DNA of 24,895 nucleotides from Candidatus Cloacimonadota bacterium (GTDB lineage Bacteria; Cloacimonadota; Cloacimonadia; JGIOTU-2), in the NCBI GenBank assembly GCA_016932035.1, contig JAFGDR010000062.1:1-24895 (forward strand). Reading direction: 5' to 3'. Positions 7,820 through 21,673 of this stretch are shown here, one piece after another. Below the pieces are notes generated by a model, which was not told the DNA's origin, searched no databases, and worked only from the letters and a program-made list of their open reading frames with translations. How positions within the stretch are numbered: the stretch's first letter is position 1; every line of letters starts with the position of its first letter. Position numbers and translations under genes: made by a program.

Positions 7820-8485
7820 TTATGGATTAAATGTTTTTAAATCTTCCATTTCACCATGAACAAGATACACAATTCGTTCACAGATATTTGCAACACGATC
7901 CGCAATTCGTTCAAGATCATGTGCGATCCAGAGAAAATATGTCCCAACCTTGAAGCGTTTAGGTTTTTCTTTTTCATAGGATACGATCTCGTCGAAAATC
8001 TTAACGTAATAATTATCTACAACATCATCGTGCTTGAAAATCTTTAAAGCTTCTTGGATATCTCTATCTATTAAAGCTTGTATACTCCTTTTTATCATGC
8101 GGAGTACTTCCTGGGCCATGTCGAATACTGTCTGAAGCGTTTTCATCGGAGGTTCAGATTCTAGGAGTAACATTACTTTTGCTATACCTTGTGCATGATC
8201 TCCCATACGTTCAAAATCCGTAATGATATTAAGGATGGCGATAATTTCTCTGAGGTCTGTTGCAACTGGCTGCTGTGTCGCAATGAGGAGTATGCATTTT
8301 TCTTCTACTTTCCAGCGTTTCTTATTGATGTCTATATCTCGTGAAATGACATCATATGCCAGTTCCGAATTATGTCTCATGAGCGCATTGATTGCATTAT
8401 TCAGCGCTTCCCAGACCATTTCGCCGATATTTATTGCACCCTGTTCAATCTCCTTTAATCCTTCGATATATTGTTCTCTAACCAT
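7820..8485 (-). CDS. phoU: PhoU, negative regulator of phosphate uptake
   Basis: PhoU couples the state of the Pst transporter to the PhoR kinase and keeps the regulon off when phosphate is plentiful. The protein is two repeats of a three-helix bundle. Its conserved signatures are visible as ATQQPVATDLREIIAILNIITDFERMGDHA in the first half and FLWIAHDLERIADRVANICERIVYLVHG in the second, with the metal-binding E/D-x3-D patterns (DFERMGDHA, DLERIADR). I start it at ATG 8485 (221 residues) because AGAGG lies 5 bases upstream. A longer frame from 8527 would overlap pstB and adds 14 residues unlike the family. It is the last gene of the porin-pst operon. Confidence 0.94.
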   Translation of the reverse strand: MVREQYIEGLKEIEQGAINIGEMVWEALNNAINALMRHNSELAYDVISRDIDINKKRWKVEEKCILLIATQQPVATDLREIIAILNIITDFERMGDHAQGIAKVMLLLESEPPMKTLQTVFDMAQEVLRMIKRSIQALIDRDIQEALKIFKHDDVVDNYYVKIFDEIVSYEKEKPKRFKVGTYFLWIAHDLERIADRVANICERIVYLVHGEMEDLKTFNP

Positions 8486-8499
8486 GTTTACCTCTTCTA

Positions 8500-9258
8500 T
8501 TAACCAAATTTCCCGCTGATGTAGCATTCAGTTAACTGGTCTTGTGGATTCATAAATACTTGCTCTGTTTCTCCATACTCGATCAGTTTACCAACGTAGA
8601 AAAATGCTGTATAATCTGAAACTCGAGCTGCCTGCTGCATGTTGTGTGTAACAAGTATAATTGTATATTTTTCTTTTAGCTTTTCCATAAGCTCTTCGAT
8701 CTTCAGTGTTCCTGCAGGATCAAGTGCTGATGCCGGTTCATCCATCAATACGATTTCCGGTTCCACTGCAATTGCTCGAGCCGTACAAAGCCGCTGTTGC
8801 TGACCGCCTGAAAGTGACATTGCAGAATCATGAAGGCGATCATTTACCTCATCCCAAAGAGCAGTGTCTTTTAGGCTTTGTTCTACGATCTCAGGTATTC
8901 TGCTCTTCTTGACTTGATTTATTTTCAAACCATATGCAATATTATCATAAATTGATTTTGGAAATGGATTCGGTCGTTGAAAAACCATACCAACCTTTTT
9001 CCTCAGTGCTGTAATATCGGTTTTTGGTTTGTATATATCTTCATCATCAATGAAGATTGAACCTTCTATTCTTGTGGTAAGGATCAGGTCATTCATCCTG
9101 TTCAGGCATCGAAGAAATGTTGATTTACCGCATCCTGAAGGACCCATTATTGCAGTGATCGATTTTTTTCTAATCTCTATATTAACGTCTATGAGGACGT
9201 GCTTTTTCCCAAACCACAGGTTAAGATTCTCTGTTTGAACGATCACGTCATTTACCAT
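8500..9258 (-). CDS. pstB: Phosphate ABC transporter ATP-binding protein PstB
   Basis: PstB is the ATPase that powers high-affinity phosphate import. The 252-residue protein shows Walker [10 protein letters not shown] (39-47), Q-loop Gln94 in [15 protein letters not shown], signature LSGGQQQR (149-156), Walker B IVLMDEP (169-175) with DEPASALDP, and switch His205. LNRMNDLI and [16 protein letters not shown] are typical of PstB as opposed to other ABC ATPases. The start overlaps the pstA stop by 7 bases (ATGGTAAATG), so translation is coupled. phoU follows 14 bases after the stop. Confidence 0.97.
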
Positions 9259-10100
9259 GTTTTTGCCTTTCTCGCTCTATATCTAATGATAATCGCAATT
9301 AAATTTATTCCAAGAACCAGAAGCAACAAGACCAGTGCTGTTCCATAGGCAATCGGCACCTGGTACTGCGGTTTTGTCCCTTCGGTCATAAGTGCATAAA
9401 TGTGATAGGGAAGCGCCATTACTTCATCAAAAACTGTTGAAGGCAATCTTCTAGTGTAGAAGGTTGCGGCAGTAAAGAGGATCGGAGCCGTTTCTCCGGC
9501 AGCTCTCCCTATACCGAGTATCGCTCCTGTCAAAATCCCAGGCATAGCAACAGGAAGTACTACATGTCGAACAGTATGCCATTTTGATGCGCCAAGACCA
9601 TATGATGCTTCTCTGAAACTTTCGGGAACTGTTGCAATTGCTTCTTCTGTCGATCTGATGATAATCGGCAGAATCAATATTCCAAGTGTAAGAGCACCTG
9701 AAATAAGCGATACTCCAAACTGGAAGAATTTCACAAAAACAGCTAATCCAAAAAGTCCAAATACAACCGATGGTACACCAGCGAGGTTATTGACGCCTAC
9801 TCTTATTATCCTTACCACTCTGTAACTTTTTGCATATTCGCGCAGATAGATCGCTGCGAGCACACCGAGTGGTAGTGCAAATAGGATCGCTCCAACTGCA
9901 AGCAGGAACGTTCCCATGATCGCAGGAAAGATACCTCCTTTAGTCATTCCATCTTTAGGAAATTCTGTAAGAAACGGTATTGATATGACTCCTGCTCCTT
10001 TTACAATGATCACGATGATAAGGGAAAATAAGAAGATCACAGCAAGGAGTATGGATAGTCTGAGAAGCAGAAATCCAAATCGTTGTTTAAATTTTCTCAT
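9252..10100 (-). CDS. pstA: Phosphate ABC transporter permease PstA
   Basis: This is an inner-membrane permease that pairs with PstC to form the phosphate channel. The 282-residue protein has about six membrane helices. The MetI-type coupling loop is [32 protein letters not shown] (about 152-183, the EAA motif). [19 protein letters not shown] and [14 protein letters not shown] are strong PstA signatures. Its ATG overlaps the pstC stop by 4 bases (ATGA), and it overlaps pstB by 7 bases at the other end. Confidence 0.96.
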
Positions 10101-10954
10101 ACTTTCCTCCTATGGGAGATCCAGTCTGCGAGAATATTGAATCCAAGGGTCATAAAGAAAAGAACTAATGCGATGGCAAAGAGTGCTTGATAATGCATAC
10201 TCCCCATTGGTGCTTCGCCCATTTCTGCTGCAATCGTGGCGGTCATCGTTCTGATCGGATCGAAGATAGAGTGTGGAATTTGAGCTGCTCCCCCAGCAAC
10301 CATGAGCACGGTCATGGTTTCACCAATAGCGCGACCAAGACCAAGAATAATGCTAGCGATAATACCTGAAGATGCAGCTGGAACAACCGATCTGGTGATC
10401 GTTTCCCACTTTGTTGCTCCAAGAGCAAATGATGCTTCCCTGAGTGATTTAGGAACAGACGAGATCGCATCCTCTGCTATACTTGCCACAGTAGGAAGTG
10501 CCATCATACCTAAAATTATCGAAGCAGTAAATGCATTCAATCCTATCGGAACGTTAAAAACTTTTTGAACAAGCGGTGCTAAAAAGACCATCCCAAATAA
10601 TCCATAAATAACTGATGGCACACTTGCAAGTAGTTCGACTGTGGGTTTCAAAATTTCCTTGATCTTATGAGAGGCGACTTCTGATATGTAGATAGCCGTA
10701 CCAACTCCAAGGGGAACTGCAATGATAAGTGTGCCAAGTGTTACGACAAGTGTACCGACAATGAGTGGCAATATCCCAAGCTCGGGCGGGTATCGAGTCG
10801 GGTACCAGTGTGTGCCGAACAAAAACTTGAAAATATTAAGCTCTTTAAATATCGACAGACTTTCTGTGAAGAGAGTGAGGGTGATACCACAGAGGAAGAA
10901 TATTGAGACAAACGCACAGGCGAGTAATATCAATTTGATTATTTTTTCTTTCAT
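10097..10954 (-). CDS. pstC: Phosphate ABC transporter permease PstC
   Basis: This is the partner permease of PstA in the inner membrane. The 285-residue protein has about six helices and the EAA loop AEDAISSVPKSLREASFALGATKWETITRSVVP (about 160-192). LLASVPSVIYGLFGMVFLAPLV and GLGRAIGETMTVLMVAGG are PstC signatures, and the FLFGTHWYPT segment near residues 44-53 is the usual PstC N-terminal loop. It lies 87 bases after pstS with a strong hairpin between them, and overlaps pstA by 4 bases. Confidence 0.96.
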   Translation of the reverse strand: MKEKIIKLILLACAFVSIFFLCGITLTLFTESLSIFKELNIFKFLFGTHWYPTRYPPELGILPLIVGTLVVTLGTLIIAVPLGVGTAIYISEVASHKIKEILKPTVELLASVPSVIYGLFGMVFLAPLVQKVFNVPIGLNAFTASIILGMMALPTVASIAEDAISSVPKSLREASFALGATKWETITRSVVPAASSGIIASIILGLGRAIGETMTVLMVAGGAAQIPHSIFDPIRTMTATIAAEMGEAPMGSMHYQALFAIALVLFFMTLGFNILADWISHRRKV

Positions 10955-10988
10955 CCTACTTCTTTCTACAATTTAAAAACTCTGCTTT

Positions 10989-11015
10989 AAAGGGCGAGCT
11001 CTTAACTCGCCCTTT
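10989..11015 (-). promoter_or_regulatory. Hairpin between pstS and pstC (attenuator or mRNA stabiliser)
   Basis: A perfect 10-bp stem, AAAGGGCGAG/CTCGCCCTTT, with a 7-base loop, 26 bases past the pstS stop. On the minus strand only TTT follows it, so termination would be partial. This fits differential expression: the binding protein upstream of the hairpin is made in excess over the permease subunits downstream. Confidence 0.75.
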
Positions 11016-11041
11016 TGGGAGAACAGCATCTCTTACGCTAA

Positions 11042-11875
11042 TTATCTAAGAGGCACAAAACCTAAATCTTCTACAATGCTCTGACCTTCTGCAGACCAGA
11101 TGAAATCAAGATATTGTTTAGCAAGACCTTTAGGATTGCCATTTGTATACATATAAAGCGGACGGGCGAGTTTGTATGAGCCTGCATTAACTGTGGCATT
11201 ACTGGGCATTACACCGCCGACCTTGAGAGCTTTTACTGCATCGGAAAGATATCCGAGACCAACATAACCAATTGAGCTGGGTGTTTGGCTTACGGTCTGT
11301 GCAACAGCATTATTTGATGCAAGAACAACCGCATCTTCGCGAACTTTACCACCACCAAGAGCAAGTGCGTTGAACACTTCATAGGTTCCGGATGAATTAT
11401 CGCGCGAGATCACAACGATAGGACCCGGCACTCCGCCAAGATCTTTCCAGTTGCTTATCTCTCCTGTATAAATTGCTTCGATTTGAGGAATCGTTATTTC
11501 GCTGATACCATTACTTGGATGTACGACAACTGCGATACCATCTTTTGCAACAACATTACCAACTGGGTTGATTCCTTTTTCTCTGGCAGCTTTTAGTTCT
11601 TTTGTCTTAATAGAACGGGATGCATCTGCGATCTGTACTGTTCCATCGAGAAGTGCTGCGATGCCAACACTTGAACCACCACCACGAACTGAAATGTTTG
11701 CATCAGAATGCTTGTCCATATAAACTTCAGCACATTTCTGAGCTATGGGAAGTACGGTTGTAGAACCTGTTATTGTAAGCGTGCCTTCATCTTTTTTTGC
11801 CCAGGGCCATTTGAAGGCAAATGCCGAGCTGCTGATGAAAACAAACAACATTAAGAGTACAAGTATTTTTTTCAT
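11042..11875 (-). CDS. pstS: Periplasmic phosphate-binding protein PstS
   Basis: PstS captures phosphate in the periplasm and delivers it to PstCA. Residues 1-20 form a type I signal peptide ending AFA; there is no lipobox Cys, which points to a free periplasmic protein and a diderm cell. Phosphate-binding segments are GSTTV (37-41), RGGGSSVGIAALLDG, ADASRS and ISRDNSSGTYEVF. The 277-residue length is typical of short PstS. AAGGAG precedes the ATG by 6 bases. The gene follows the porin after 17 bases, so both are driven by the Pho-box promoter at 12980-13009, and it is followed by a hairpin that likely raises its relative expression. Confidence 0.96.
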   Translation of the reverse strand: MKKILVLLMLFVFISSSAFAFKWPWAKKDEGTLTITGSTTVLPIAQKCAEVYMDKHSDANISVRGGGSSVGIAALLDGTVQIADASRSIKTKELKAAREKGINPVGNVVAKDGIAVVVHPSNGISEITIPQIEAIYTGEISNWKDLGGVPGPIVVISRDNSSGTYEVFNALALGGGKVREDAVVLASNNAVAQTVSQTPSSIGYVGLGYLSDAVKALKVGGVMPSNATVNAGSYKLARPLYMYTNGNPKGLAKQYLDFIWSAEGQSIVEDLGFVPLR

Positions 11876-11892: not shown

Positions 11893-12903
11893 TTAAAATT
11901 TAGGGGTTTTAAAGGTCCAGTTCAACTGTGCATATATCTTCTTGGTATCTTCAGATTTACTGCTTTCATATGAAATATTCTCATAGTTGAGCTGAAGGAT
12001 GACATTGCTAGCACAATAATAGTTCAATCCGGCAATCCACATATTCTTCTTGTCATTATCCTGATCTGTGTTCGGATCCCACTGGTCATAACGGAACACT
12101 AACTCGAAGTTGGGGAAAAGTTTGAGGATCGGCATAACCATGAAACCGGCACTCTTTGTCTCACAACTCGTTTTTGATTCTTCGGTGTAGTTTTTCATGA
12201 GGTATTCTGCCCATATATCAATTGGACCAAATACGAAGCGACCAACACCAGCATAAGCTGTCATTTTGTCGTAAGGTTCGGATGTTCCGACTTTATTTGC
12301 AATGATTGCAGATCCACCAACAGTAATTCCCGGTAACGGTGTTACGCGAACATTACCTGTGAATGCTGGATACTTGTTAACATCACTTCCAGTTTTCTTA
12401 TAACCTTCACCGTTGTACAAAGCTAATGCATATTCACCAAGTCCACCAGGGATCAAACCCGAAATGCCAAGACCATAGTCTGTGGATGAACAAACCTTGT
12501 AAAGGTCAGATGGATCTTTTTCTACGGTGATATAACTCCAATCATAGATCGTACCAAAATATTTTTTCATTAAACCTGCTGTGAATACAGCATCTGGAAT
12601 TGGAATAAGTTTTTTGAAGTCGAGATATGCATACTTGATCTTTAGACCAGCACCATCAAGACCATCTTCATCTGAGAAGAAATCAACGTTGAAGCGACCA
12701 AAGATAGCGCTACTAAAATTGTGATTCAAGCGCAGATAACCACGTGCAAGTGAGAATTGATCTTCTGTAACCTCGTCACCAGATTTCACGTAGGTGTAAC
12801 GATTCCATACTGTCATTTGGATTTGTGTGTCTGATGCAAAAAGCATGTTTGCACCAATAACTAACATTAACACAAAAGCGACTAAATATTTAACTTTAGC
12901 CAT
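11893..12903 (-). CDS. Outer-membrane beta-barrel porin, probable phosphate-starvation porin
   Basis: The 336-residue protein has a signal peptide (MAKVKYLVAFVLMLVIGANMLFA, cleavage near 23). After it come alternating amphipathic beta-strands rich in Tyr, Trp and Phe (for example QIQMTVWNRYTYV, YLRLNHNFSSAIFGRFNVDFF, IDIWAEYLMKNY, FELVFRYDQWDP), ending in NWTFKTPKF with a terminal Phe. These are hallmarks of an outer-membrane barrel. It resembles phosphate-selective porins (OprP/OprO type) in layout and context, but selectivity cannot be read from sequence. I start it at ATG 12903 because AAAGGAG lies 5 bases before; the ATG at 12918 has that RBS inside its own codons. It is first in the operon with pstSCAB-phoU, directly under a Pho box. 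Confidence 0.85.
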   Translation of the reverse strand: MAKVKYLVAFVLMLVIGANMLFASDTQIQMTVWNRYTYVKSGDEVTEDQFSLARGYLRLNHNFSSAIFGRFNVDFFSDEDGLDGAGLKIKYAYLDFKKLIPIPDAVFTAGLMKKYFGTIYDWSYITVEKDPSDLYKVCSSTDYGLGISGLIPGGLGEYALALYNGEGYKKTGSDVNKYPAFTGNVRVTPLPGITVGGSAIIANKVGTSEPYDKMTAYAGVGRFVFGPIDIWAEYLMKNYTEESKTSCETKSAGFMVMPILKLFPNFELVFRYDQWDPNTDQDNDKKNMWIAGLNYYCASNVILQLNYENISYESSKSEDTKKIYAQLNWTFKTPKF

Positions 12904-12979
12904 ATTAACTCCTTTCATTTCTAAAGTGCCTCTTGGGCTATTTTTTTATATGAATATTCTACGATTGAAGCATTAATAA

Positions 12980-13009
12980 TTTATAAACGTTTTGTTAATT
13001 TTGTGTTAA
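12980..13009 (-). promoter_or_regulatory. Pho box and promoter of the porin-pstSCAB-phoU operon
   Basis: Read on the minus strand: TTAACA (13009-13004), 5 bases, TTAACA (12998-12993), 7 bases, TATAAA (12985-12980). Two TTAACA-type half-sites with 11-bp periodicity are the classic PhoP/PhoB binding pattern, standing in for the -35 element. The distal half-site contains the stop codon (TAA, 13006-13008) of the gene upstream. The core AAAATTAACAAAAC recurs exactly at the second Pho box (16833-16846). The predicted leader before the porin ATG is about 70 bases. Confidence 0.8.
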
Positions 13010-13900
13010 GATGAAATATAAGTATTCTGTTTATTATTTTTGCTGAAAAGTCGCATAAGAAGTATCCCAATCGTTACCAAGATCATTCCAAGAATAGTAA
13101 AAACTGTTATTTGGAAACCCCTCAATGCAACCGCTTGTATCAAAATAGGAAATATAACATAAATGCAGTTTTGAATAGAAACAAGGACCGTTGCCCGTGC
13201 ATGCTTCGAAAATGCATATTGTGTCATAAAGAAAGCTCCAGTTGTGAAGAAAAAGCTGACGACAAAAAAGATAGTGCCAGTGGGCGTATGCGGTAGAAAG
13301 CTTGAAGAACCACCCAAGGATTGTCCGATGTATTTATATATGGGATCCAGGCTTGCGCATCCTCCGGTTATAATACCGAAAGCAATACCAACCTGAATCG
13401 GCGATTTTCGATCAAATACAAACAACAGCATTCCTACAGTAACGATAAAAAATATCAAAGTAATATATACAATCACCATCTCATTTATAACTATTAAGTC
13501 AGCGTTTTTTCTAAAGATTCCCTCGATTCCGAGAATAAGTGTACCTATCACGATCAATGCTGAACCAAGATATTCGTTTCTATCGAGATCCTCCTTTAGT
13601 ATTTTTGAAGAATATAACAACAAAGCAATAAGTCCGAGTCCATACATCGATGTGTAGTAGGATGCAGGGGCGAATCGATTCGACAAAATGATCCAGACGC
13701 CAATCGTATTGTTGAGAAAAACACCGATACTATATATAAGTGTTTTCTTTTTCAGGTACAGAATACCAGAGCTTGTTTTTTGATATTTTCTGAGAAATGT
13801 GTTTGAGTATTTCTATCCCCTGTTGCTGCATTCCTTTTGAAATATGGAATAATACTGTTCCAATCACACCAAATAACATTGCTATGAGTTTATTATACAT
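13006..13900 (-). pseudogene. DMT/EamA-type membrane transporter, split by a frameshift
   Basis: The downstream part (frame ending at 13006) has about eight membrane helices and the two-fold repeat look of EamA-family drug/metabolite transporters. Its apparent start at 13686 is only a TTG inside a helix (GVWIILSNRFAPASYY). The missing N-terminus is present in another frame: ATG 13900 gives MYNKLIAMLFGVIGTVLFHI, continuing through WYSVPEKEN to a TAG at about 13733-13735. Joining the frames near 13735-13755, at the A-rich GAAAAAGAAAAC, gives about 298 residues and ten helices, a normal length. The change corresponds to one extra base (or two missing). A sequencing error, a real mutation or programmed +1 shifting are all possible; no RBS is evident before 13900. 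The substrate is unknown. Confidence 0.7.
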
Positions 13901-13921
13901 GGATGTGATGAGTGTTTGAAC

Positions 13922-14410
13922 TTACGCTTTTATCCGCTGCCCGAATGTTCTTTGAATAAAATCAGCGAGGGGTAGTTTTATATGTAATGGAAGGGTGGAA
14001 TGCTCTTTCTTTAAGGTAATAAAAATCCATTTGTGCTCAAAAATATTAAATGCAGCAGAAAGATCCCACAAAGGCGGTACGACAACCTTAACTTCTTTGC
14101 CAACACGAACTAATTCCTGATAAAATTTTCCCGGATCATCCACGTGTTCGATCGTGTGGGAACATAAAACCTTTTCAAAATGTTTATCTCTAAAAGGAAG
14201 ATTATAGATATCCTAAACCATGTGAAAATTTGGGACAGAAGTATGTTTTACAATATCGGCATTCACCCCACCACCGTCTGTCTTTCCGCAGCAAATATTA
14301 AGATCCCAAACCCGGCTCTCCAAAACTCGTCTTTTCATAAAACGATAGCTAACAATGTTGCTAAGAAACATATAGCCAACAAGAAAGAGTATACAATAAA
14401 TGCTGACCAT
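13922..14410 (-). pseudogene. Membrane-anchored SAM-dependent methyltransferase with an in-frame amber stop
   Basis: The frame starts at ATG 14410 (or a TTG at 14425 overlapping the previous gene) with a hydrophobic segment (MVSIYCILFLVGYMFLSNIV). It then carries a class I methyltransferase core: VWDLNICCGKTDGGGVNADIV (SAM-binding loop region) and DIYNLPFRDKHFEKVLCSHT followed by IEHVDDPGKFYQELVRVGKEV, a pattern typical of type-11 methyltransferases. Between these, at 14213-14215, TAG interrupts the frame (FHMV, stop, DIYNLPF) with the same frame continuing on both sides. A single base change from a sense codon such as AAG or CAG explains it. The C-terminal half has no good start of its own. 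Other genes here end in TAG (rnfC, rnfG), so general amber recoding is unlikely. Total length about 162 codons. Confidence 0.7.
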
Positions 14411-14414
14411 GTGG

Positions 14415-16772
14415 CTAAGATACAAAGCTTTCTATGAGTTTATTCCATCCCCCTCTTTTTTTCGAAAGATCAACTGCGCGTTTAGACATCTGCCTGACCT
14501 TTTCTGGCTCGTTGTCACATAGCTTCATAAAATCAAGCATTCTTCTTCTCCAATAGTCCACGGTTACTTCTCTCAGTATATAACCCGATTCACCATCTTT
14601 AATCACTTCCTGAGGGCCGCCCTCATTTGAAACAAAAGCGATAAGACCACATGCTTGAGCTTCAACAACTACCATGCCAAAAGTGTCAGTTTTGCTTGGA
14701 AATACAAAAAGATCTGCTGCTGAATAGTAATTTGGAAGGATTTCTCTATCCTTTTTCCCCGTAAAAATGATATGATCATTGTGAGAAAAATCCTTTTTAA
14801 ATATGTCAATATCAGGCCCGGATCCAACGACGAAAAAGTAAGTATCGGGATTCTCTTTATGAAGTTCATCAAAAGCATTAAGTGCAACCTCAAGACTTTT
14901 ATCAAACGAAACTCTCCCAGTATAGAGAAAATAAAATCCTTCTTCAATATTATATGTTTTCTGAAGCCATTCGCGTCCTTTTATCTGAGGATAGAAGACT
15001 GATGTATCCACTCCGCGTGCAAAATGTTTCATTTTAGTTCGATCAAATCCCTGCGATTCAAGCATATCCATGTATGCATAGGTAGGTACCCTAATCTCAT
15101 CAACGAGCTGATAAAACCAGTTCACAAAGCTTCGCACCGTTGCACTAAGTGAAGTATCCACATTCATCTCCTCTATCTGCTTTGCAAAGTCTGTGTGGTA
15201 TATGCCAATGCATTTGACATTCAGCAACCTTGCTGCAAGAAGCCCCAGTAGACCTATCGATGCAGGTGTGGAAATAATTATGAGATCCGGATTGAATTTG
15301 CTGATCTTTTCCATTGATTTTAGTATTGAAGGAATGTTTATTTTTAAATACTCATAATAGGGTAAATTGAATGTATGTATGCTCGGGATATTAATAAAAT
15401 TCTTCCAATATTTTTCTTCTTTGACGCTGCCCACGAGATATACATTCCGCTTGGATTTTGTGGCATTTTCCCGAATCCTGTTTACTGTTACAGATACCCC
15501 GTTCAGATCTTCGATCGTATCACTGAACCAAAGAATGTTTTTCTCTTTTTTAGATGATTCCAGATTGAAATTATTCCTCAATTTTAGAATCAAATCACGG
15601 TTTGCAAACATATGGCGCAACGAGCTGAAAAAGGGAAGCATAAGAAAAATGCCTGAAATCGATGATGTGAAGTTTTGAATAAGTTTGAATACATCACCCT
15701 GCATCAAGTGCTTCTCAATCGAAGCAAACAGAAGTTTCAGAAACTCATCACTGATCGTTGCTATTTTCCTATATGCCACCGATATTTTTTCATCAAGTGA
15801 TTTATCTTTCTCCTTTTGTAAGGTTTCGACAAGATCGTTGAAGGCGGATTTCAACTCTGCATCTTTCCCGTTTTTATCAACTGTAGAATATGCTTTCATC
15901 TTCAGTCTATTCTTCCAATTAAGAGATTTATTTGTAAAAACAAGGTTATTGATCTGGCTGAGGAGTGACTGCGAAAAGCTGCTGCTCTTCGATCTTGAAT
16001 AATCATAGGCGACCTTATACACCATAAATACAAACGACTTATAATCGTTATGCCGCCCTACAGGTTGTGTGTTTTTATGCTTTAACTGTTGAAGAAATTC
16101 TTGAGTTGTAGATGCATCTCCTTCCGTATAAGTCTCTCCCAAAAAGAGACCGGAATGATCATCAGATCCGGCAGTCAAACCCTTTATCCAGGGTGTTTCA
16201 CTCATCGGTTCAATATTGTGTTTTTCATACATCTGCTCGATATGTTGTTCTTTAAGATTTTCGAGAACATTCATCCAAGTCAGATTGTGCATCTCGTTCC
16301 TGCCGCCATTAATCCCTTCGAATATGTCGAACATTAATAGCAACTTTTCCAAATGTTCGTATTTCAACTTCCCATTTACAGAAAAGGTAGCATGTGCAAT
16401 AGAATAAGCAAGGTCTTCTTCTTTTATATAATCTCGCAAATCATATATGTTTGTTCGGATCCTTTGAATTTCTACAAACTGCTTCTCATTGAGTCCGTAA
16501 AGAAGCACATGAACTTTAAACTCATCTTCAGGAAAATATGCTGTCGCTTCATCCCCAATAATTATCTCACCAGGATATTTTTGCTGCAAGAGCAATGCAC
16601 CCTCAATGTTATTATGATCTGTAATTGTAACAAAATCCATCCCTTTATTCTTCATATTCTCGTAAATGAAATCTGGTTCTGTATAAGATTCACCAGCACC
16701 GAGTCGTTGCAAGAACCATTCTGAGGGGTGTTCAGAATAGATAGAATGGACGTGTAGATCTACTTTCGCCAT
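14415..16772 (-). CDS. PHP-domain phosphoesterase fused to GT4 glycosyltransferase
   Basis: The 785-residue fusion has an N-terminal PHP metallophosphoesterase domain (about 1-225) with its metal ligands in place: H7 and H9 (DLHVHS), D52 and H53 (TDHNN), E75 (GDEAT), H88, H127 (IAHAT), D204 and H206 (GSDDHS). Residues 230-410 are a helical linker with a hydrophobic patch (SISGIFLMLPFF). Residues 411-785 are a GT-B family 4 glycosyltransferase: acceptor-side LWFSDTIEDLNGVSVTV, FARGVDTSVFYP, LYTGRVSFDKSLEVALNAF, and the donor-site FPSKTDTFGMVVVEAQACG, where Asp696 replaces the first Glu of the E-x7-E motif, as in several lipid glycosyltransferases. AAAGGA precedes the ATG by 9 bases. A Pho box drives it. 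The product's substrate is unknown; a role in lipid or envelope glycan remodelling is inferred. Confidence 0.88.
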   Translation of the reverse strand: MAKVDLHVHSIYSEHPSEWFLQRLGAGESYTEPDFIYENMKNKGMDFVTITDHNNIEGALLLQQKYPGEIIIGDEATAYFPEDEFKVHVLLYGLNEKQFVEIQRIRTNIYDLRDYIKEEDLAYSIAHATFSVNGKLKYEHLEKLLLMFDIFEGINGGRNEMHNLTWMNVLENLKEQHIEQMYEKHNIEPMSETPWIKGLTAGSDDHSGLFLGETYTEGDASTTQEFLQQLKHKNTQPVGRHNDYKSFVFMVYKVAYDYSRSKSSSFSQSLLSQINNLVFTNKSLNWKNRLKMKAYSTVDKNGKDAELKSAFNDLVETLQKEKDKSLDEKISVAYRKIATISDEFLKLLFASIEKHLMQGDVFKLIQNFTSSISGIFLMLPFFSSLRHMFANRDLILKLRNNFNLESSKKEKNILWFSDTIEDLNGVSVTVNRIRENATKSKRNVYLVGSVKEEKYWKNFINIPSIHTFNLPYYEYLKINIPSILKSMEKISKFNPDLIIISTPASIGLLGLLAARLLNVKCIGIYHTDFAKQIEEMNVDTSLSATVRSFVNWFYQLVDEIRVPTYAYMDMLESQGFDRTKMKHFARGVDTSVFYPQIKGREWLQKTYNIEEGFYFLYTGRVSFDKSLEVALNAFDELHKENPDTYFFVVGSGPDIDIFKKDFSHNDHIIFTGKKDREILPNYYSAADLFVFPSKTDTFGMVVVEAQACGLIAFVSNEGGPQEVIKDGESGYILREVTVDYWRRRMLDFMKLCDNEPEKVRQMSKRAVDLSKKRGGWNKLIESFVS

Positions 16773-16823
16773 ACACGATGTCCTTTGATTATTTTTTTGA
16801 TTGTACTCTTAATTTATTAAAAG

Positions 16824-16853
16824 ACTATAATTGTTTTGTTAATTTTCTATGAA
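16824..16853 (-). promoter_or_regulatory. Pho box and promoter of the PHP-GT4 gene
   Basis: Read on the minus strand: TTCATA (16853-16848), 5 bases, TTAACA (16842-16837), 7 bases, TATAGT (16829-16824). Periodicity (11 bp) and distance to the -10 are identical to the porin-pst Pho box, and 14 bases of the core match exactly. The distal half-site is weaker. The leader before the ATG at 16772 would be about 45 bases. It lies in the short gap after the sigma-factor gene. Confidence 0.72.
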
Positions 16854-16862
16854 GGTCTACGT

Positions 16863-17357
16863 TTAGGTTAACTCAATTCCCAGCTTCCTCAAACGTCTCA
16901 ATCCCTTCTCTTTGAGTTGACGAACTCTTTCTCGTGGGATACCGAGTTTCTCTCCTATCTCTCCAAGATCATAAGAACCATTTCCATCTAAGCCATACAA
17001 AAGAATAAGGACTTTCTTCTCCTTGTCGGGAAACGATGTAGGGAAGTTAATTCTCTCATAATTCTCTATCTCTTCAGTATTCTCTCTTTTGTGGTAGGAT
17101 ATTTCATCATTGTATTGAGCCGCATCCAAAGATGCATCATACTCTTTTCCGACTGCCTCGAGTATTCTTTTCTTAATCCAATATGTTGCATAAGTACTGA
17201 ATTTCGCATCCTTCTCTGGATCATATCTTTGCCACGCTTCCCATAATCCTATTGTGCCTTCCTGGATAAGATCCTCAAAAGGAATTGTCGAGTGTATATA
17301 TTTTGAAGCGATACTTTTTACCAATGCTAGATGTTTATCTATTTCTTTCTTATCCAT
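16863..17357 (-). CDS. Small sigma70-family factor coupled to phoR
   Basis: The 164-residue protein has sigma region 2 at about 8-68 (LVKSIASKYIHSTIPFEDLIQEGTIGLWEAWQRYDP...FSTYATYWIKKRI, including the core-binding and -10 recognition helices). Region 4 is at about 108-160, with the -35 helix-turn-helix (DLGEIGEKLGIPRERVRQLKEKGLRRLRKLG). It lacks regions 1 and 3. The region-2 sequence is closer to the sigma70 main family than to ECF factors. Its ATG shares one base with the phoR stop (TAATG) and has no Shine-Dalgarno, so it depends on translation of phoR. No anti-sigma gene adjoins it. A sigma factor in a phoBR operon suggests a second regulatory output under phosphate limitation. Confidence 0.85.
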   Translation of the reverse strand: MDKKEIDKHLALVKSIASKYIHSTIPFEDLIQEGTIGLWEAWQRYDPEKDAKFSTYATYWIKKRILEAVGKEYDASLDAAQYNDEISYHKRENTEEIENYERINFPTSFPDKEKKVLILLYGLDGNGSYDLGEIGEKLGIPRERVRQLKEKGLRRLRKLGIELT

Positions 17358-19105
17358 TATGCATTATATGGGAGAATAATAATAAACTTAGTTCCCTCAC
17401 CAACCTTACTTTCAACATATATCTCTCCGTTGTGCGCAAGTACAATATGTTTAACGATTGAAAGCCCAAGACCTGTACCACCAAGCTGTCGAGAACGGGA
17501 TTTATCTACAACATAGAAACGCTCGAATATACGGGGTAAGCTATATTCCGGAATTCCTATGCCGTTATCCTCGATCTCAATAATAACCTGATTATCTTCT
17601 AAGGATACATCAATCATAATCTTGCCTTTTTTTTCTGTATAGGTTACAGCGTTATCCAAAAGATTTATCATGAGTTGCTCGATAAGGAAAGGATCTGCTT
17701 GAAATTTCTTTATTGAACTATCATAATCAAAGGTGATATGAATGTTTTTCTCATCGATCTTTTTTTGCTCAATTAACAGTGAATTTTCAATAAGTTTTTC
17801 AAGATCAAATTTCTTATAATTGATAATATCGTGTTTGTTCTCAAGATTGGAAAGGACAAGAAGGTCGGACACGATATTGATGAGCCGGTCTGTATTCGAA
17901 CGTATGATTTTTATAAATCTTTTATGAGCCGAATCAATCTCTTCCTCCAGTGTTTCAGCAAAGCCCTTGATTGCCGTAAGTGGTGTTTTAAGCTCATGTG
18001 CAACATTTGCCACAAAATCTGTTTTCATCTCTTCAAGTCGCTTTAGTTCAGTTATATCATGCATAACAACGATGATACGTTTTTCAGGAATGCCGAGGAT
18101 AATAGAAGCACTGGTTAAATATATCTTTCCTTTAATCTCAATTTCCTTTGTAGCGGAATTATTTGTGTCTAACACATTTGTTAAAAGATTTCCAAACTCC
18201 TCTTGTCTTATATATTCCCAATACCTTTTACCCACCAATTTGTTCAGTTCACAATGTATTATTTCTGAAAAAATTTTATTTGCTGTTACAATAATTCCGT
18301 CTGGATTTAGAACAATTAGTGCTTCGACCATGGAAGAAAGAATCGTTTTTAGTTCTTCCTGCTCCTGGTTCAGTGATGTAATATACATCTCAAGCTCTCG
18401 CGCCATCTCGTTGAGTGATTCTGCTAATCTTCCGAGCTCATCTCTCCGTCTTGTATAAAGACGCGCTTTAAAATCTCCCTCTTTGATGCGTTGAGCGACC
18501 TGAGCAATATCCCGAACGGGTTTAGTATAGGCTTGTGTAATAAGTATTGATAAGATTAGTGCCAGAACTGTTATTACGATGGATATGTTCAGAATATCTT
18601 TTGTGATAACATGTATGCTTCTCTGGATATTTTCGAGGAATGAGCTTGTTCGTACAACACCGATCACTTTATCGTTCTGAACAATTGGAACAGCAACATA
18701 GAGCATGTCTTTCTTCAATGTTTCACTGAACCGGACACTTTTACCAATCCCGCTTCTTAATGCACCGATCACCTCCGGACGATTGCTGTGATTTTCCATG
18801 TTTTGCACATCCTCTTCCGAGTCACCAAGCACTGTTCCATCACTTCGTATGACCGTACATCTGATGCCGAGCTCATTGCCAAGATCGTGTGTTGTCGATT
18901 TGATATGCTGGTAATCATTCTCCAATACAAAGGATGTTATGAACTTTTGAATGAGCTGGGCATAGTTTTCCAATGTCAGTTCAAGATTCTGAAGATAGTT
19001 GTTCTTAATTTCCCTGGAGGCAAAATGGACGATCAGTCCTGCAGTGAGCACAATAATGATAAAAAAGGTGAGAAAAAGTTTCCACATGAATGAAAGATTT
19101 TTCAT
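17357..19105 (-). CDS. phoR: Sensor histidine kinase PhoR
   Basis: This is a membrane kinase partner of PhoB. Numbered from ATG 19105 (582 residues): helix 1 at about 7-27, an exported sensor region of about 140 residues, helix 2 at about 174-192, HAMP (about 196-240), PAS (about 250-355), HisKA with phosphoacceptor His370 in VAHELKTPLTAIKGFAETL, and an ATPase domain with N-box NLLDNAVTY (481-489), DNGIGIP (513-519), FERFYVVDKSRS and GGTGLGLS (542-549). The large periplasmic domain resembles the PhoR of Firmicutes and many diderms, not the minimal E. coli form. I chose 19105 since it lies 1 base after the phoB stop and gives a normal PhoR N-terminus; a GTG at 19132 would overlap phoB by 26 bases. 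Confidence 0.92.
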   Translation of the reverse strand: MKNLSFMWKLFLTFFIIIVLTAGLIVHFASREIKNNYLQNLELTLENYAQLIQKFITSFVLENDYQHIKSTTHDLGNELGIRCTVIRSDGTVLGDSEEDVQNMENHSNRPEVIGALRSGIGKSVRFSETLKKDMLYVAVPIVQNDKVIGVVRTSSFLENIQRSIHVITKDILNISIVITVLALILSILITQAYTKPVRDIAQVAQRIKEGDFKARLYTRRRDELGRLAESLNEMARELEMYITSLNQEQEELKTILSSMVEALIVLNPDGIIVTANKIFSEIIHCELNKLVGKRYWEYIRQEEFGNLLTNVLDTNNSATKEIEIKGKIYLTSASIILGIPEKRIIVVMHDITELKRLEEMKTDFVANVAHELKTPLTAIKGFAETLEEEIDSAHKRFIKIIRSNTDRLINIVSDLLVLSNLENKHDIINYKKFDLEKLIENSLLIEQKKIDEKNIHITFDYDSSIKKFQADPFLIEQLMINLLDNAVTYTEKKGKIMIDVSLEDNQVIIEIEDNGIGIPEYSLPRIFERFYVVDKSRSRQLGGTGLGLSIVKHIVLAHNGEIYVESKVGEGTKFIIILPYNA

Positions 19106-19106
19106 A

Positions 19107-19796
19107 CTATTTTTCAAGCTTGTAGCCAACACCTCGAACAGATTTTATTCGATCTCCAACCGTACCCAGCTTCTTTCTTATTTTCTGAATATGTACATCT
19201 ATTGTTCTGTCAAGTACGACCTTATCTTCACCCCAGAGCATATCAAGGAGTTTATTTCTCGAATACACCCATCCGGGATGAGACATAATAATGGAAAGTA
19301 ACTTGAATTCGGTTGTTGTAAACTCGATCACTTCATTTTTAAACCGCGCTTCATACGTATCGAGATCAAGCACAAGATCTTCATATTTGATGAGATTTTG
19401 ATGGTCAGCTTTCTGTTTGTCTCCACTTCTTCTCAGAACAGCTTTAACTCGTGCTACAAGTTCTCTCGGGCTGAAGGGCTTTACTACATAATCATCCGCT
19501 CCCATCTCAAGCCCAACGATCTTATCAATTTCTGTTCCCTTTGCTGTCAGCATGATGATCGGTATATTTTTAAGACTATCATTTGCCCGTATCTTTCTAC
19601 AAATCTCAAGCCCATCGATAGAGGGAAGCATCAAGTCCAGAATTACCAGATCTGGAATTGTATGTCTTAGATATTCAAGGAATGACTCCCCGTCATAAAA
19701 TGCATCAGTATGGTATTTTTCCTTTTCCAGGTGGTATTGGATGAGTTCAACGATATCAGGCTCGTCATCCACAACTGCGATCGTTTTTTTACTCAT
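19107..19796 (-). CDS. phoB: OmpR-family response regulator PhoB
   Basis: The 229-residue protein has a receiver domain (1-about 122) with acidic pocket Asp10/Asp11, phosphoacceptor Asp54 (LVILDLMLPSIDG), Thr84 and Lys106 (VVKPFSPRELVARVKAVLRR). A winged-helix DNA-binding domain follows (about 135-229), ending in HIQKIRKKLG...IKSVRGVGYKLEK with recognition-helix residues LDRTIDVHIQKIRKKL. It is called PhoB from its pairing with PhoR and from the PhoU-like and Na/Pi genes on its 5' side. It is the likely ligand for the two TTAACA-type boxes. It starts inside the end of the PhoU-like gene (8-base overlap). Confidence 0.93.
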   Translation of the reverse strand: MSKKTIAVVDDEPDIVELIQYHLEKEKYHTDAFYDGESFLEYLRHTIPDLVILDLMLPSIDGLEICRKIRANDSLKNIPIIMLTAKGTEIDKIVGLEMGADDYVVKPFSPRELVARVKAVLRRSGDKQKADHQNLIKYEDLVLDLDTYEARFKNEVIEFTTTEFKLLSIIMSHPGWVYSRNKLLDMLWGEDKVVLDRTIDVHIQKIRKKLGTVGDRIKSVRGVGYKLEK

Positions 19797-20484
19797 ATTC
19801 TGACTTCTTCTCGTATTTTTGGGTTACTGACTCCGGCATAAATCGAACTTTTTCGAAAGGTTGAACAAGTGCCGTTGCAATATTAAGAAGATGGGCAGCA
19901 ATCCTCTTCAAATAGCGAATGTAAAGAGCAGCAATGACTGCAGTCTGTACATCTAATCCCAGATCTTCAGTGATGAGTTTATGAAGTATCACCTCACATC
20001 GCCCTGTAAGTTTTTTATTTACAACAGATTCAGCTGATGCTTTATCAGACTTTTCAAATGATCGGGTAACAACATCAAAAAGGTGCTCAATGTCCAATTC
20101 TATTGCAGACAAATCATCATCGAGAACTCCTGCATTAAGCTCAATATTTGCTATTCTTGCGAGCTCAAGAATGTTCATCGTATAATCGCCGACCCGTTCT
20201 ATATCGATCACAATGCCTATAAGATTTATTGCAACTGGAGAATCCGCTGTTCCGGAAGCCGCAAGGTGTATCAACACTTTTTTGCGAACAATACGTTCGG
20301 TCTTATCTACCTTTCTCTCTTCATAATAGATATCAACATCAGGATGAGGAATGTCTCTGCCGCGAAGTCTTGCGCTTGCATTATCAAACATATTGTTTGC
20401 TCGGTCCAACATATCACATGCATCCTGGTGTGCTTCTTTATACAAATTGCTTTTTTTCAGGAGTTTAATTAATTCTTTTATCAT
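19789..20484 (-). CDS. PhoU-domain protein linked to the Na+/Pi symporter
   Basis: The 231-residue all-helical protein has the PhoU-type pattern, clearest at AINLIGIVIDIERVGDYTMNILELARIAN (about 84-112) and LYIRYLKRIAAHLLNIATALVQP (about 187-209). Its N-terminal part (KLLKKSNLYKEAHQDACDMLDRANNMF) resembles the PhoU-like domain often fused to the C-terminus of Na+/Pi cotransporters; here it is a separate gene 25 bases after that transporter. It is more divergent than the pst-linked PhoU at 7820-8485. GAGG precedes the ATG by 5 bases. It may control the symporter, or PhoR, or both. Confidence 0.82.
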   Translation of the reverse strand: MIKELIKLLKKSNLYKEAHQDACDMLDRANNMFDNASARLRGRDIPHPDVDIYYEERKVDKTERIVRKKVLIHLAASGTADSPVAINLIGIVIDIERVGDYTMNILELARIANIELNAGVLDDDLSAIELDIEHLFDVVTRSFEKSDKASAESVVNKKLTGRCEVILHKLITEDLGLDVQTAVIAALYIRYLKRIAAHLLNIATALVQPFEKVRFMPESVTQKYEKKSEYE

Positions 20485-20509: not shown

Positions 20510-21673
20510 TTATTTTGTTATTAAAAGAAAAAATATTGGTAAAATAAAAAAGATCAAAGCAATTAAGAGAATTGGATAGAGTTTGCTTTTCATTGTTAGA
20601 TTTGAAGCAGCGAGAGCGATTTTGATTGGAATCATTCTGATCGGCTTCAGGGGTAGAATTATTAACATGCCAAGAAAATTAAAGGTGAAGTGGGAAATGG
20701 CAACAACAAGTGCTGCAGGTGAGCATGTTGCCATAGCTGCCAACAGTGTTGTTACAGTCGTACCGATATTTGCCCCAACGGTATAAGGGAAAACCTGGTA
20801 GATATTGACGATACCGGCACCAGCCAGCGGAATCATGATAGACGTTGTTATCGAACTACTCTGCACAATTGCTGTTAAAATAATACCAAGGAGCAATGCG
20901 AGCACACCATTTCTGAAAATAAAATCAGAGAAAAATTGTTCTACTTTACCGATAACGAGCTGACGAATTACTTTTACCATAAATCGCAGGGCTATAAAAA
21001 GTAAGAATAACGCTATAACAAGGATAAAAATTTGAGAAAGGGTCGGCGAAAATATCTCTTGAATAAATCCAGGAGATCCATCACCCGGATACTTTGAATT
21101 GTATAAAAAATTTACGATCGGTTTTGTGATCATCCCGATCGGACTCTTGAATTCCGCTCCTCTAATGTTTGCGTGGAGGATGAAAGAACCCAGTTTTAGT
21201 GATATCTTTTCGATTAGTCCAAAATAAATTTCCAAAGGCAGGAGGACAGCAACTGCGATAATATTAAAGATATCATGTACGATAGCACAGCTATACGCTC
21301 GCTTGAATTCATCAGTTCGTGAGATATGCCCAAGCGAAACAAGTGTATTCGTGATCGTCGTCCCAATATTCGCTCCCATAATAATTGGGATCGCAATCCT
21401 TATCGAATCTGCGCCAAGAATATTGCTTGCTACAAGCCCAACGACAATCGAGGTTGTTGTCGACGAGCTCTGCACGATGCTTGTTGTGAGAATACCTATC
21501 AATAAACCCATGATTGGATTGCTCACACTTGTAATAAGATTTGTTGATAGTTGATGAAAACTTTTGAAGCCAGCTCCCATCATGACGATACTTAGAAAGA
21601 AGATGTATATCAGGAATATGAGAAGAAGTATCTTAAATAGTCTTGTAATGGTTGATGTCGACTGATCTGGCAT
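20510..21673 (-). CDS. Na+/phosphate symporter (PNaS / NptA family)
   Basis: This is an inner-membrane Na+-coupled phosphate transporter. The 387-residue protein has the inverted repeat typical of the family: QSSSTTTS at 68-75 with GANIGTTIT at 100-108, and QSSSITTS at 271-278 with GANIGTTVT at 300-308, the QSSS motifs being the substrate and Na+ sites. About eight to nine membrane helices. The usual C-terminal PhoU-like domain is absent and is encoded by the next gene. The ATG lies 9 bases after the hypE stop and has no Shine-Dalgarno, so translation probably re-initiates from hypE. It gives the cell a low-cost uptake route besides Pst. Confidence 0.92.
   Translation of the reverse strand: MPDQSTSTITRLFKILLLIFLIYIFFLSIVMMGAGFKSFHQLSTNLITSVSNPIMGLLIGILTTSIVQSSSTTTSIVVGLVASNILGADSIRIAIPIIMGANIGTTITNTLVSLGHISRTDEFKRAYSCAIVHDIFNIIAVAVLLPLEIYFGLIEKISLKLGSFILHANIRGAEFKSPIGMITKPIVNFLYNSKYPGDGSPGFIQEIFSPTLSQIFILVIALFLLFIALRFMVKVIRQLVIGKVEQFFSDFIFRNGVLALLLGIILTAIVQSSSITTSIMIPLAGAGIVNIYQVFPYTVGANIGTTVTTLLAAMATCSPAALVVAISHFTFNFLGMLIILPLKPIRMIPIKIALAASNLTMKSKLYPILLIALIFFILPIFFLLITK

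Follow-up and report, generated by a model that had tools for sequence, protein, structure and literature searches.

Two putative Pho boxes at a Cloacimonadota phosphate locus

The window analysed here, i.e., the 24,895-nucleotide stretch represented by contig JAFGDR010000062.1 of a Candidatus Cloacimonadota bacterium (GenBank assembly GCA_016932035.1), carries on its minus strand a string of phosphate genes, in which the genes for PhoB, PhoR and a small sigma factor are followed by a gene encoding a PHP phosphoesterase domain fused to a GT4 glycosyltransferase domain (designated PHP-GT4) and, further downstream, by a porin-pstSCAB-phoU operon (Table 1). Two matching sites, one located upstream of the porin-pst operon and the other upstream of the PHP-GT4 gene, had been proposed in a sequence-only reading to be Pho boxes.

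On the minus strand, the first site (13009-12980) reads TTAACA-caaaa-TTAACA-aaacgtt-TATAAA and the second (16853-16824) TTCATA-gaaaa-TTAACA-aaacaat-TATAGT, letters and positions being exactly as had been reported. The stretch said to be identical in both is the 14-mer AAAATTAACAAAAC, of which the window contains these two copies and no third; when up to two mismatches are allowed, 3 matches are found where 0.94 would be expected. The box is larger than first described, since it comprises four repeats and a downstream -10 hexamer. Alignment of the upstream regions of sixteen Cloacimonadota PHP-GT4 genes revealed a fixed layout in all sixteen, in which four TTAACA-like hexamers recur as direct repeats every 11 bp and a -10 hexamer follows after a 9-bp gap, the box starting 80-89 bp upstream of the PHP-GT4 start codon. 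The repeat and -10 columns of these sites hold approximately 1 bit of information each, and the spacers approximately 0.35 bit. TATAAA and TATAGT, which had been given as the third element of the motif, overlap the third 11-bp repeat and do not represent the -10 hexamer, which is situated 9 bp past the fourth repeat. The base directly preceding the -10 hexamer (12962 and 16806 in the window) is a G in all sixteen PHP-GT4 sites and in nearly all pst sites, and is often itself preceded by a C, yielding CGTATAAT.

Table 1. Features of the window, all on the minus strand, with the basis of each assignment
Feature	Coordinates	Strand	Basis
Putative Pho box and promoter, porin-pst operon	12956-13009	-	42.6 bits, foreign-site matrix
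pst box repeats	13009-13004 TTAACA; 12998-12993 TTAACA; 12987-12982 TTTATA; 12976-12971 TTAATG	-	
pst promoter -10	12961-12956 TAGAAT	-	9-bp gap after fourth repeat
Putative Pho box and promoter, PHP-GT4 gene	16800-16853	-	21.1 bits, foreign-site matrix
PHP-GT4 box repeats	16853-16848 TTCATA; 16842-16837 TTAACA; 16831-16826 ATTATA; 16820-16815 TTAATA	-	
PHP-GT4 promoter -10	16805-16800 TACAAT	-	9-bp gap after fourth repeat
PHP-GT4 fusion, 785 aa	14415-16772	-	Pfam GT4; CehA/McbA PHP model; AlphaFold; fold matches
PHP domain	16053-16772	-	conserved metal ligands
GT4 domain	14418-15554	-	invariant residues; motifs GRVSFDKS, FPSKTDTFG
PhoB, the response regulator predicted to bind the two boxes	19107-19796	-	TIGR02154 best match; co-occurrence with box
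PhoR/PnpS-like sensor kinase	17357-19132	-	PnpS 393.6 bits (cut-off 400); TIGR02966 PhoR 285 bits
Small sigma factor, 164 aa, sigma-70 regions 2 and 4 only	16863-17357	-	Pfam
Phosphate-selective porin O/P, first gene of pst operon	11893-12918	-	Pfam PF07396, E 6e-8
pstSCAB-phoU, whole	7820-11875	-	
pstS	11042-11875	-	Pfam
pstC	10097-10954	-	sequence, order, tblastn matches in relatives
pstA	9252-10100	-	sequence, order, tblastn matches in relatives
pstB	8500-9258	-	sequence, order, tblastn matches in relatives
phoU	7820-8527	-	sequence, order, tblastn matches in relatives
PhoU-domain protein, upstream in same gene string	19789-20484	-	Pfam PF01895
Na/Pi cotransporter, upstream in same gene string	20510-21673	-	Pfam PF02690

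Significance of the sites against chance

A short motif of this kind is by itself weak evidence. The exact sequence TTAACA-N5-TTAACA occurs once in the 2.44-Mb source genome, at pst, and the two-repeat core is not enriched genome-wide, with 15 matches at no more than one mismatch versus 32 for a reversed control. It is the longer, comparative architecture that lifts the sites beyond chance. A 54-bp matrix was derived from 38 sites, all of them in genomes other than the source genome, and the scores that it assigns to the two sites (Table 1) compare with a best score per randomised window of -5.8 on average and 4.1 at maximum (n=200). When a 34-site model, built without either window site, was scanned against the source genome, the top-ranking match was the porin-pst site, with 28.9 bits (E 3.4e-6), followed in second place by the PHP-GT4 site, with 17.2 bits (E 0.018). 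A matrix scan of the genome and of its relatives was the check that had been suggested for the proposal, and the box was also found to recur before phosphate genes in these relatives.

These data bear on the possibility that the sites are chance likenesses of AT-rich sigma-70 promoters, with TTAACA as -35 and TATAAA as -10 element, and that PHP-GT4 is unrelated to phosphate. By eye, TTAACA-N18-TATAAA at pst makes a fair sigma-70 promoter, TTAACA is common in AT-rich DNA, and the two-repeat core does not exceed its control. However, the 54-bp layout scores far outside the null distribution, is present in all sixteen orthologues, is specific to phosphate genes and is linked to PhoB, leaving such a coincidence barely credible. 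An ordinary sigma-70 promoter arising by chance was accordingly ruled out on the basis of orthologue conservation, recurrence at pst and foreign-matrix scores.

A probable Pho regulon in Cloacimonadota

Orthologues of PHP-GT4 were identified in 16 of 124 Cloacimonadota genomes. Lack of conservation upstream of orthologues had been named as an outcome that would speak against the proposal; the box is retained in 16/16 of them, and in many orthologues from other phyla. Moreover, of 30 pst loci scanned with a matrix trained solely on the sixteen PHP-GT4 upstream regions (including that of the window), 25 showed the same layout before the porin gene, approximately 1.1-1.3 kb upstream of pstS; no such match was found in the remaining five, in all of which the upstream DNA examined was shorter.

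A scan of the 124 genomes at a threshold of E <= 0.001 returned 84 box matches, 52 of which lie upstream of pst and 15 upstream of PHP-GT4 (67/84 together). Of the other seventeen, approximately ten precede porins at contig ends, phoB-phoR (locus L231), a porin gene followed by phoB-phoR (L225), divergent pstS and phoU (L221), or the Na/Pi cotransporter gene nptA (L230), and a few precede genes for secreted proteins. Where a genome possesses both pst and the box, the latter almost always lies ahead of the former; the box is present in 58 of 68 genomes with a close PhoB as opposed to 7 of 56 without (p 6e-17), co-occurrence with pstS being similar (p 8e-17).

The box being kept upstream of orthologues, preceding phosphate genes and co-occurring with PhoB, the fusion gene probably belongs to the phosphate regulon, and we regard it as very probable that the sites are true Pho boxes. 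The proposal that PhoB (Table 1) controls both, and that the fusion is a phosphate-starvation gene, is likewise supported by conservation, by association with pst, phoBR, phoU and nptA, and by PhoB co-occurrence; PhoB binding and induction at low phosphate are what we infer from the computed site architecture, conservation and gene associations. It might be argued that the box is read by another regulator of the OmpR family, since direct-repeat sites are common to such regulators, the PhoB of the window scores below its NCBIfam equivalog cut-off, and seven box-bearing genomes have no close PhoB match. The genes that the box precedes (pst, porin, phoBR, phoU and nptA) and its co-occurrence with PhoB argue against this, and several of the seven exceptions are contig-end cases (the G016 contig begins inside phoR) or incomplete genomes, so that we consider another reader to be very improbable. 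A phosphate regulon is in this manner defined for a phylum represented here by genome assemblies alone, and the sequence model may now be used to find the same regulon elsewhere.

The distribution of the regulon is patchy, several genomes of the same genus (G001 and G003-G007) being devoid of pstS, PhoB, sigma factor and box. The third-best match of the source genome, a partial one with E 0.04, lies before a run of three genes whose products bear type IX secretion tails, the last encoding a secreted Endonuclease I (L266 1501-7222; contig C52, ~31.0-36.7 kb). Extracellular nucleases are known Pho targets, as exemplified by nucH in cyanobacteria (PMC1906773).

The box and PHP-GT4 in other phyla

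Full-length members of the PHP-GT4 family occur in about 70 loci belonging to a wide range of diderm groups; in the order to which locus L172 (uncultured Desulfomicrobium) belongs, 61 of 120 genomes carry the family. Upstream of 68 PHP-GT4 genes from outside Cloacimonadota, an excess of base matching at lag 11 (and also at lags 22 and 33) was detected between -130 and -45 (z 6.6), and was absent between -300 and -140 of the same genes; in the order of L172 this signal is weak (z 2.5). In Firestonebacteria and Spirochaetes, the best genome-wide matches of the Cloacimonadota model precede pstS, porins, an arsenate-reductase-like gene and PHP-GT4. On the basis of these scans and of the lag-11 excess, the four-repeat box is assigned as a Pho box in several phyla, with PHP-GT4 as a recurrent predicted member of the regulon.

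The comparison also bears on whether PHP-GT4 is, in the source organism, transcribed mainly by read-through from the phoB-phoR-sigma operon, the box contributing little. The gene is on the same strand, 90 bp further downstream, and the stronger of the two boxes is that of pst; in G081, G098, G107 and others, PHP-GT4 is found apart from phoBR and the box is still present, which makes predominant read-through improbable.

In Firestonebacteria and a Spirochaete, the gene preceded by the box (L109 13019-13071, L112 5395-5447, L313) resembles those for arsenate reductases and low-molecular-weight phosphatases, and in L112 it is followed by a porin-like gene. In several genomes of the L172 order, PHP-GT4 is preceded at approximately 120-140 bp by an inverted repeat, CTGTCACA-N4-TGTGACAG, which varies between genomes (L281-L287).

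Relation to previously described Pho boxes

The PhoP box of Bacillus subtilis is composed of TT(A/C/T)A(C/T)A repeats. The Cloacimonadota box resembles it in half-site sequence, 11-bp period and number of repeats (four), and differs in that the B. subtilis host is monoderm and that the Cloacimonadota regulator is assigned to the PhoB/PnpS-PhoR group. The half-site had indeed been likened to that of Bacillus rather than to that of E. coli, a resemblance which holds; the implied novelty of such a site in a diderm organism does not, because the cyanobacterial regulator SphR is known to bind tandem CTTAACCT in three or more repeats with a 3-bp linker (PMC1906773), making a TTAAC half-site unsurprising in diderms. 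The SphR box shares with that of Cloacimonadota the TTAAC-type half-site, the 11-bp period, at least three tandem repeats, the location upstream of pst and the diderm host; the Cloacimonadota box is distinguished by four repeats, a last half-site base that is usually A, the fixed 9 bp to the -10 hexamer and the near-invariant G. The E. coli Pho box consists of two 11-bp repeats of the CTGTCAT type (PMC1906773, PMC4971064). Both boxes are made of 11-bp direct repeats replacing the -35 element, whereas that of Cloacimonadota has a TTAACA instead of a TGTCA core, four repeats instead of two, and a different spacing to the -10 hexamer.

The PHP-GT4 protein

PHP-GT4 is composed of a PHP phosphoesterase domain (residues ~1-240), a helical linker (~241-406) and a GT4 domain of GT-B fold (407-785). 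The AlphaFold models are of high confidence, with a pLDDT of 89 for the whole protein and of 94 for residues 1-260. Residues 1-240 fold as a PHP domain, with matches to PHP phosphoesterases, RNase AM and PsfC at Z 16-19, and the CehA/McbA PHP model matches 58 of 60 family members, PF02811 matching just 16 of the 60 at E 1e-3. The metal ligands H7, H9, D52, H53, H127, D204 and H206 are invariant among the 60 sequences, and E75 is present in 59. Residues 407-785 closely match MshA (Z 38.4, 2.6 A over 354 residues), and H526, R620, K625, D696 and E704 are invariant; the domain thus combines a GT4 profile and GT-B fold with the catalytic Arg/Lys pair and the E/D-x7-E arrangement. In its FPSxTDTFG motif, Asp (D696, 60/60) replaces the usual Glu, and the catalytic His is equally conserved (H526, 60/60). 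The same Asp-bearing motif, along with catalytic His, Arg and Lys residues, has been described in GTcp and Agt, enzymes that transfer sugar to diacylglycerol during lipid remodelling at low phosphate (PMC8231724). By sequence and structural model, PHP-GT4 is predicted to be an intact PHP phosphoesterase joined to a GT4 with Agt/GTcp motifs.

A Pho-regulated pair of enzymes, PlcP and Agt, is known to carry out lipid remodelling (PMC4796936), and the fusion of a GT4 to a phosphoesterase therefore suggests an analogue of this pair. Both combine a phosphoesterase with a GT4 of the Agt motif type under Pho control, which for PHP-GT4 is predicted from the box. In contrast, PHP-GT4 unites the two in one polypeptide and has a PHP domain in place of PlcP, and its hosts belong to mostly anaerobic diderm phyla. 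Because of its PHP fold the phosphoesterase domain does not belong to the PlcP family, and PHP-GT4, which may work in the manner of the PlcP-Agt system, falls outside it. That PHP-GT4 is a phospholipid-to-glycolipid remodelling enzyme at low phosphate seems to us a slightly better than even prospect; catalytic residues and folds were computed, and the acceptor lipid and the PHP substrate are presumed.

It is also possible, with less than even prospects, that regulation is as proposed and the acceptor is another one, i.e., a phosphorus-free envelope polysaccharide or a lipopolysaccharide (LPS) sugar, or that the protein trims sugar phosphates. GT4 similarity is broad, MshA, BshA and WaaG folds score high, and LPS and exopolysaccharide (EPS) models match; a parallel is offered by Bacillus, in which low phosphate switches teichoic to teichuronic acid. 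The Asp-type FPSxTDTFG motif and invariant His, however, fit the GTcp/Agt lipid clade, and lipid glycosyltransferase models rank near the top, being among the best-scoring sub-cut-off NCBIfam matches of the GT4 domain.

In Desulfovibrio alaskensis, a mutant in the 'Agt homolog' Dde_3613 is without glycolipids at low phosphate, and homologues of Dde_3613 were reported in more than 50 Deltaproteobacteria at E < 1e-100 (PMC5193443), a spread that fits the presence of PHP-GT4 in the L172 order. The text of that report makes no mention of PHP; Dde_3613 may be a PHP-GT4 fusion, in which case half of the proposed function has already been demonstrated. A literature search returned no description of a PHP-glycosyltransferase fusion under phosphate control, and both the multi-phylum four-repeat box before PHP-GT4 and the assignment of this family as a phosphate-starvation protein are, to our knowledge, new.

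Proposed mechanism

At low phosphate, phosphorylated PhoB, probably in the form of two dimers, would bind the four (C/T)TTAACA direct repeats, each offset from the next by 11 bp or one helical turn. PhoB would substitute for a -35 element and recruit RNA polymerase to the -10 hexamer 9 bp past the fourth repeat, so that the porin-pstSCAB-phoU operon is switched on, as is PHP-GT4 from a separate promoter located in the 90 bp that follow phoB-phoR-sigma. The PHP domain, presumably metal-dependent, would free phosphate or diacylglycerol from a phospholipid or a derivative, and the GT4 domain would add a sugar to diacylglycerol, glycolipids thereby replacing phospholipids.

We consider this explanation as a whole, i.e., PhoB-driven Pho boxes and lipid remodelling by PHP-GT4, to be likely. 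Several points weigh against it. The PHP-GT4 site is the weaker of the two, with TTCATA as first and ATTATA as third repeat and a genome-wide E of 0.018. PhoB and PhoR match Pho models best and score below the curated cut-offs, PhoB reaching 260 bits with TIGR02154, its best NCBIfam match, against a cut-off of 296; here, genomic context supports PhoB. Numerous GT4 models for non-lipid functions match the GT4 domain with comparable E-values, none of the matches reaching the cut-off, and PlcP belongs to a fold family other than PHP. Furthermore, some phyla holding PHP-GT4 have no recognisable box of the four-repeat type, and phoB, phoR or pst genes are nearby in only about a third of 80 PHP-GT4 loci.

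The analysis connects phosphate starvation with a large uncharacterised family whose members are spread over many diderm phyla from largely anaerobic habitats. Should PHP-GT4 indeed make glycolipids, this would partly account for the phosphorus-free lipids that are abundant in anoxic waters and sediments and have been attributed in part to sulfate reducers with 'agt' homologues (PMC5193443).

A small sigma factor encoded with PhoB and PhoR

The gene for the small sigma factor, located between phoR and PHP-GT4, is the last of phoB-phoR-sigma. Such a sigma factor is present in 64 of 124 Cloacimonadota genomes, where it co-occurs with the Pho box and pstS, and among the 60 genomes in which phoB and the sigma gene are both found, 54 have the order phoB-phoR-sigma on one strand, phoB and sigma lying within 3.5 kb (L236-L265). 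In a by-eye alignment, a lysine-rich WIKK stretch in region 2.4 presumably replaces the residues by which sigma-70 reads the -10 element. This region 2.4, together with the near-invariant G before the -10 hexamer, suggests a sigma factor dedicated to phosphate genes, a question which the phoB-phoR-sigma arrangement itself raises. The G is also frequent, if not universal, in phyla in which no such sigma factor was seen near PHP-GT4, and is therefore no proof of it; a control for the G using TTGACA-N17-TATAAT was uninformative, as it matched about as often as its reversed counterpart. Promoters of the Pseudomonas aeruginosa sigma factor VreI require PhoB and a pho box (PMC4971064), representing a precedent for PhoB acting with an alternative sigma factor; VreI is an extracytoplasmic function (ECF) sigma factor with an anti-sigma factor, whereas that of Cloacimonadota is part of the phoB-phoR operon. 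A more far-reaching proposition, in which the small sigma factor reads a CG-TATAAT -10 element, phosphate genes need this sigma factor as well as PhoB bound to the four repeats, and the downstream target PHP-GT4 is a new, widespread one-protein phospholipid-to-glycolipid converter, appears to us doubtful, and is put forward tentatively.

Other reading frames near PHP-GT4

An EamA-like transporter frame (13006-13900) is apparently interrupted near 13733 by a stop and a frame change, and G016 holds no gene of at least 100 aa at the corresponding place. Directly after PHP-GT4, a methyltransferase-like frame (13922-14413) contains an in-frame TAG stop; in G016, a methyltransferase gene occupies the same place (L063 3206-3694).

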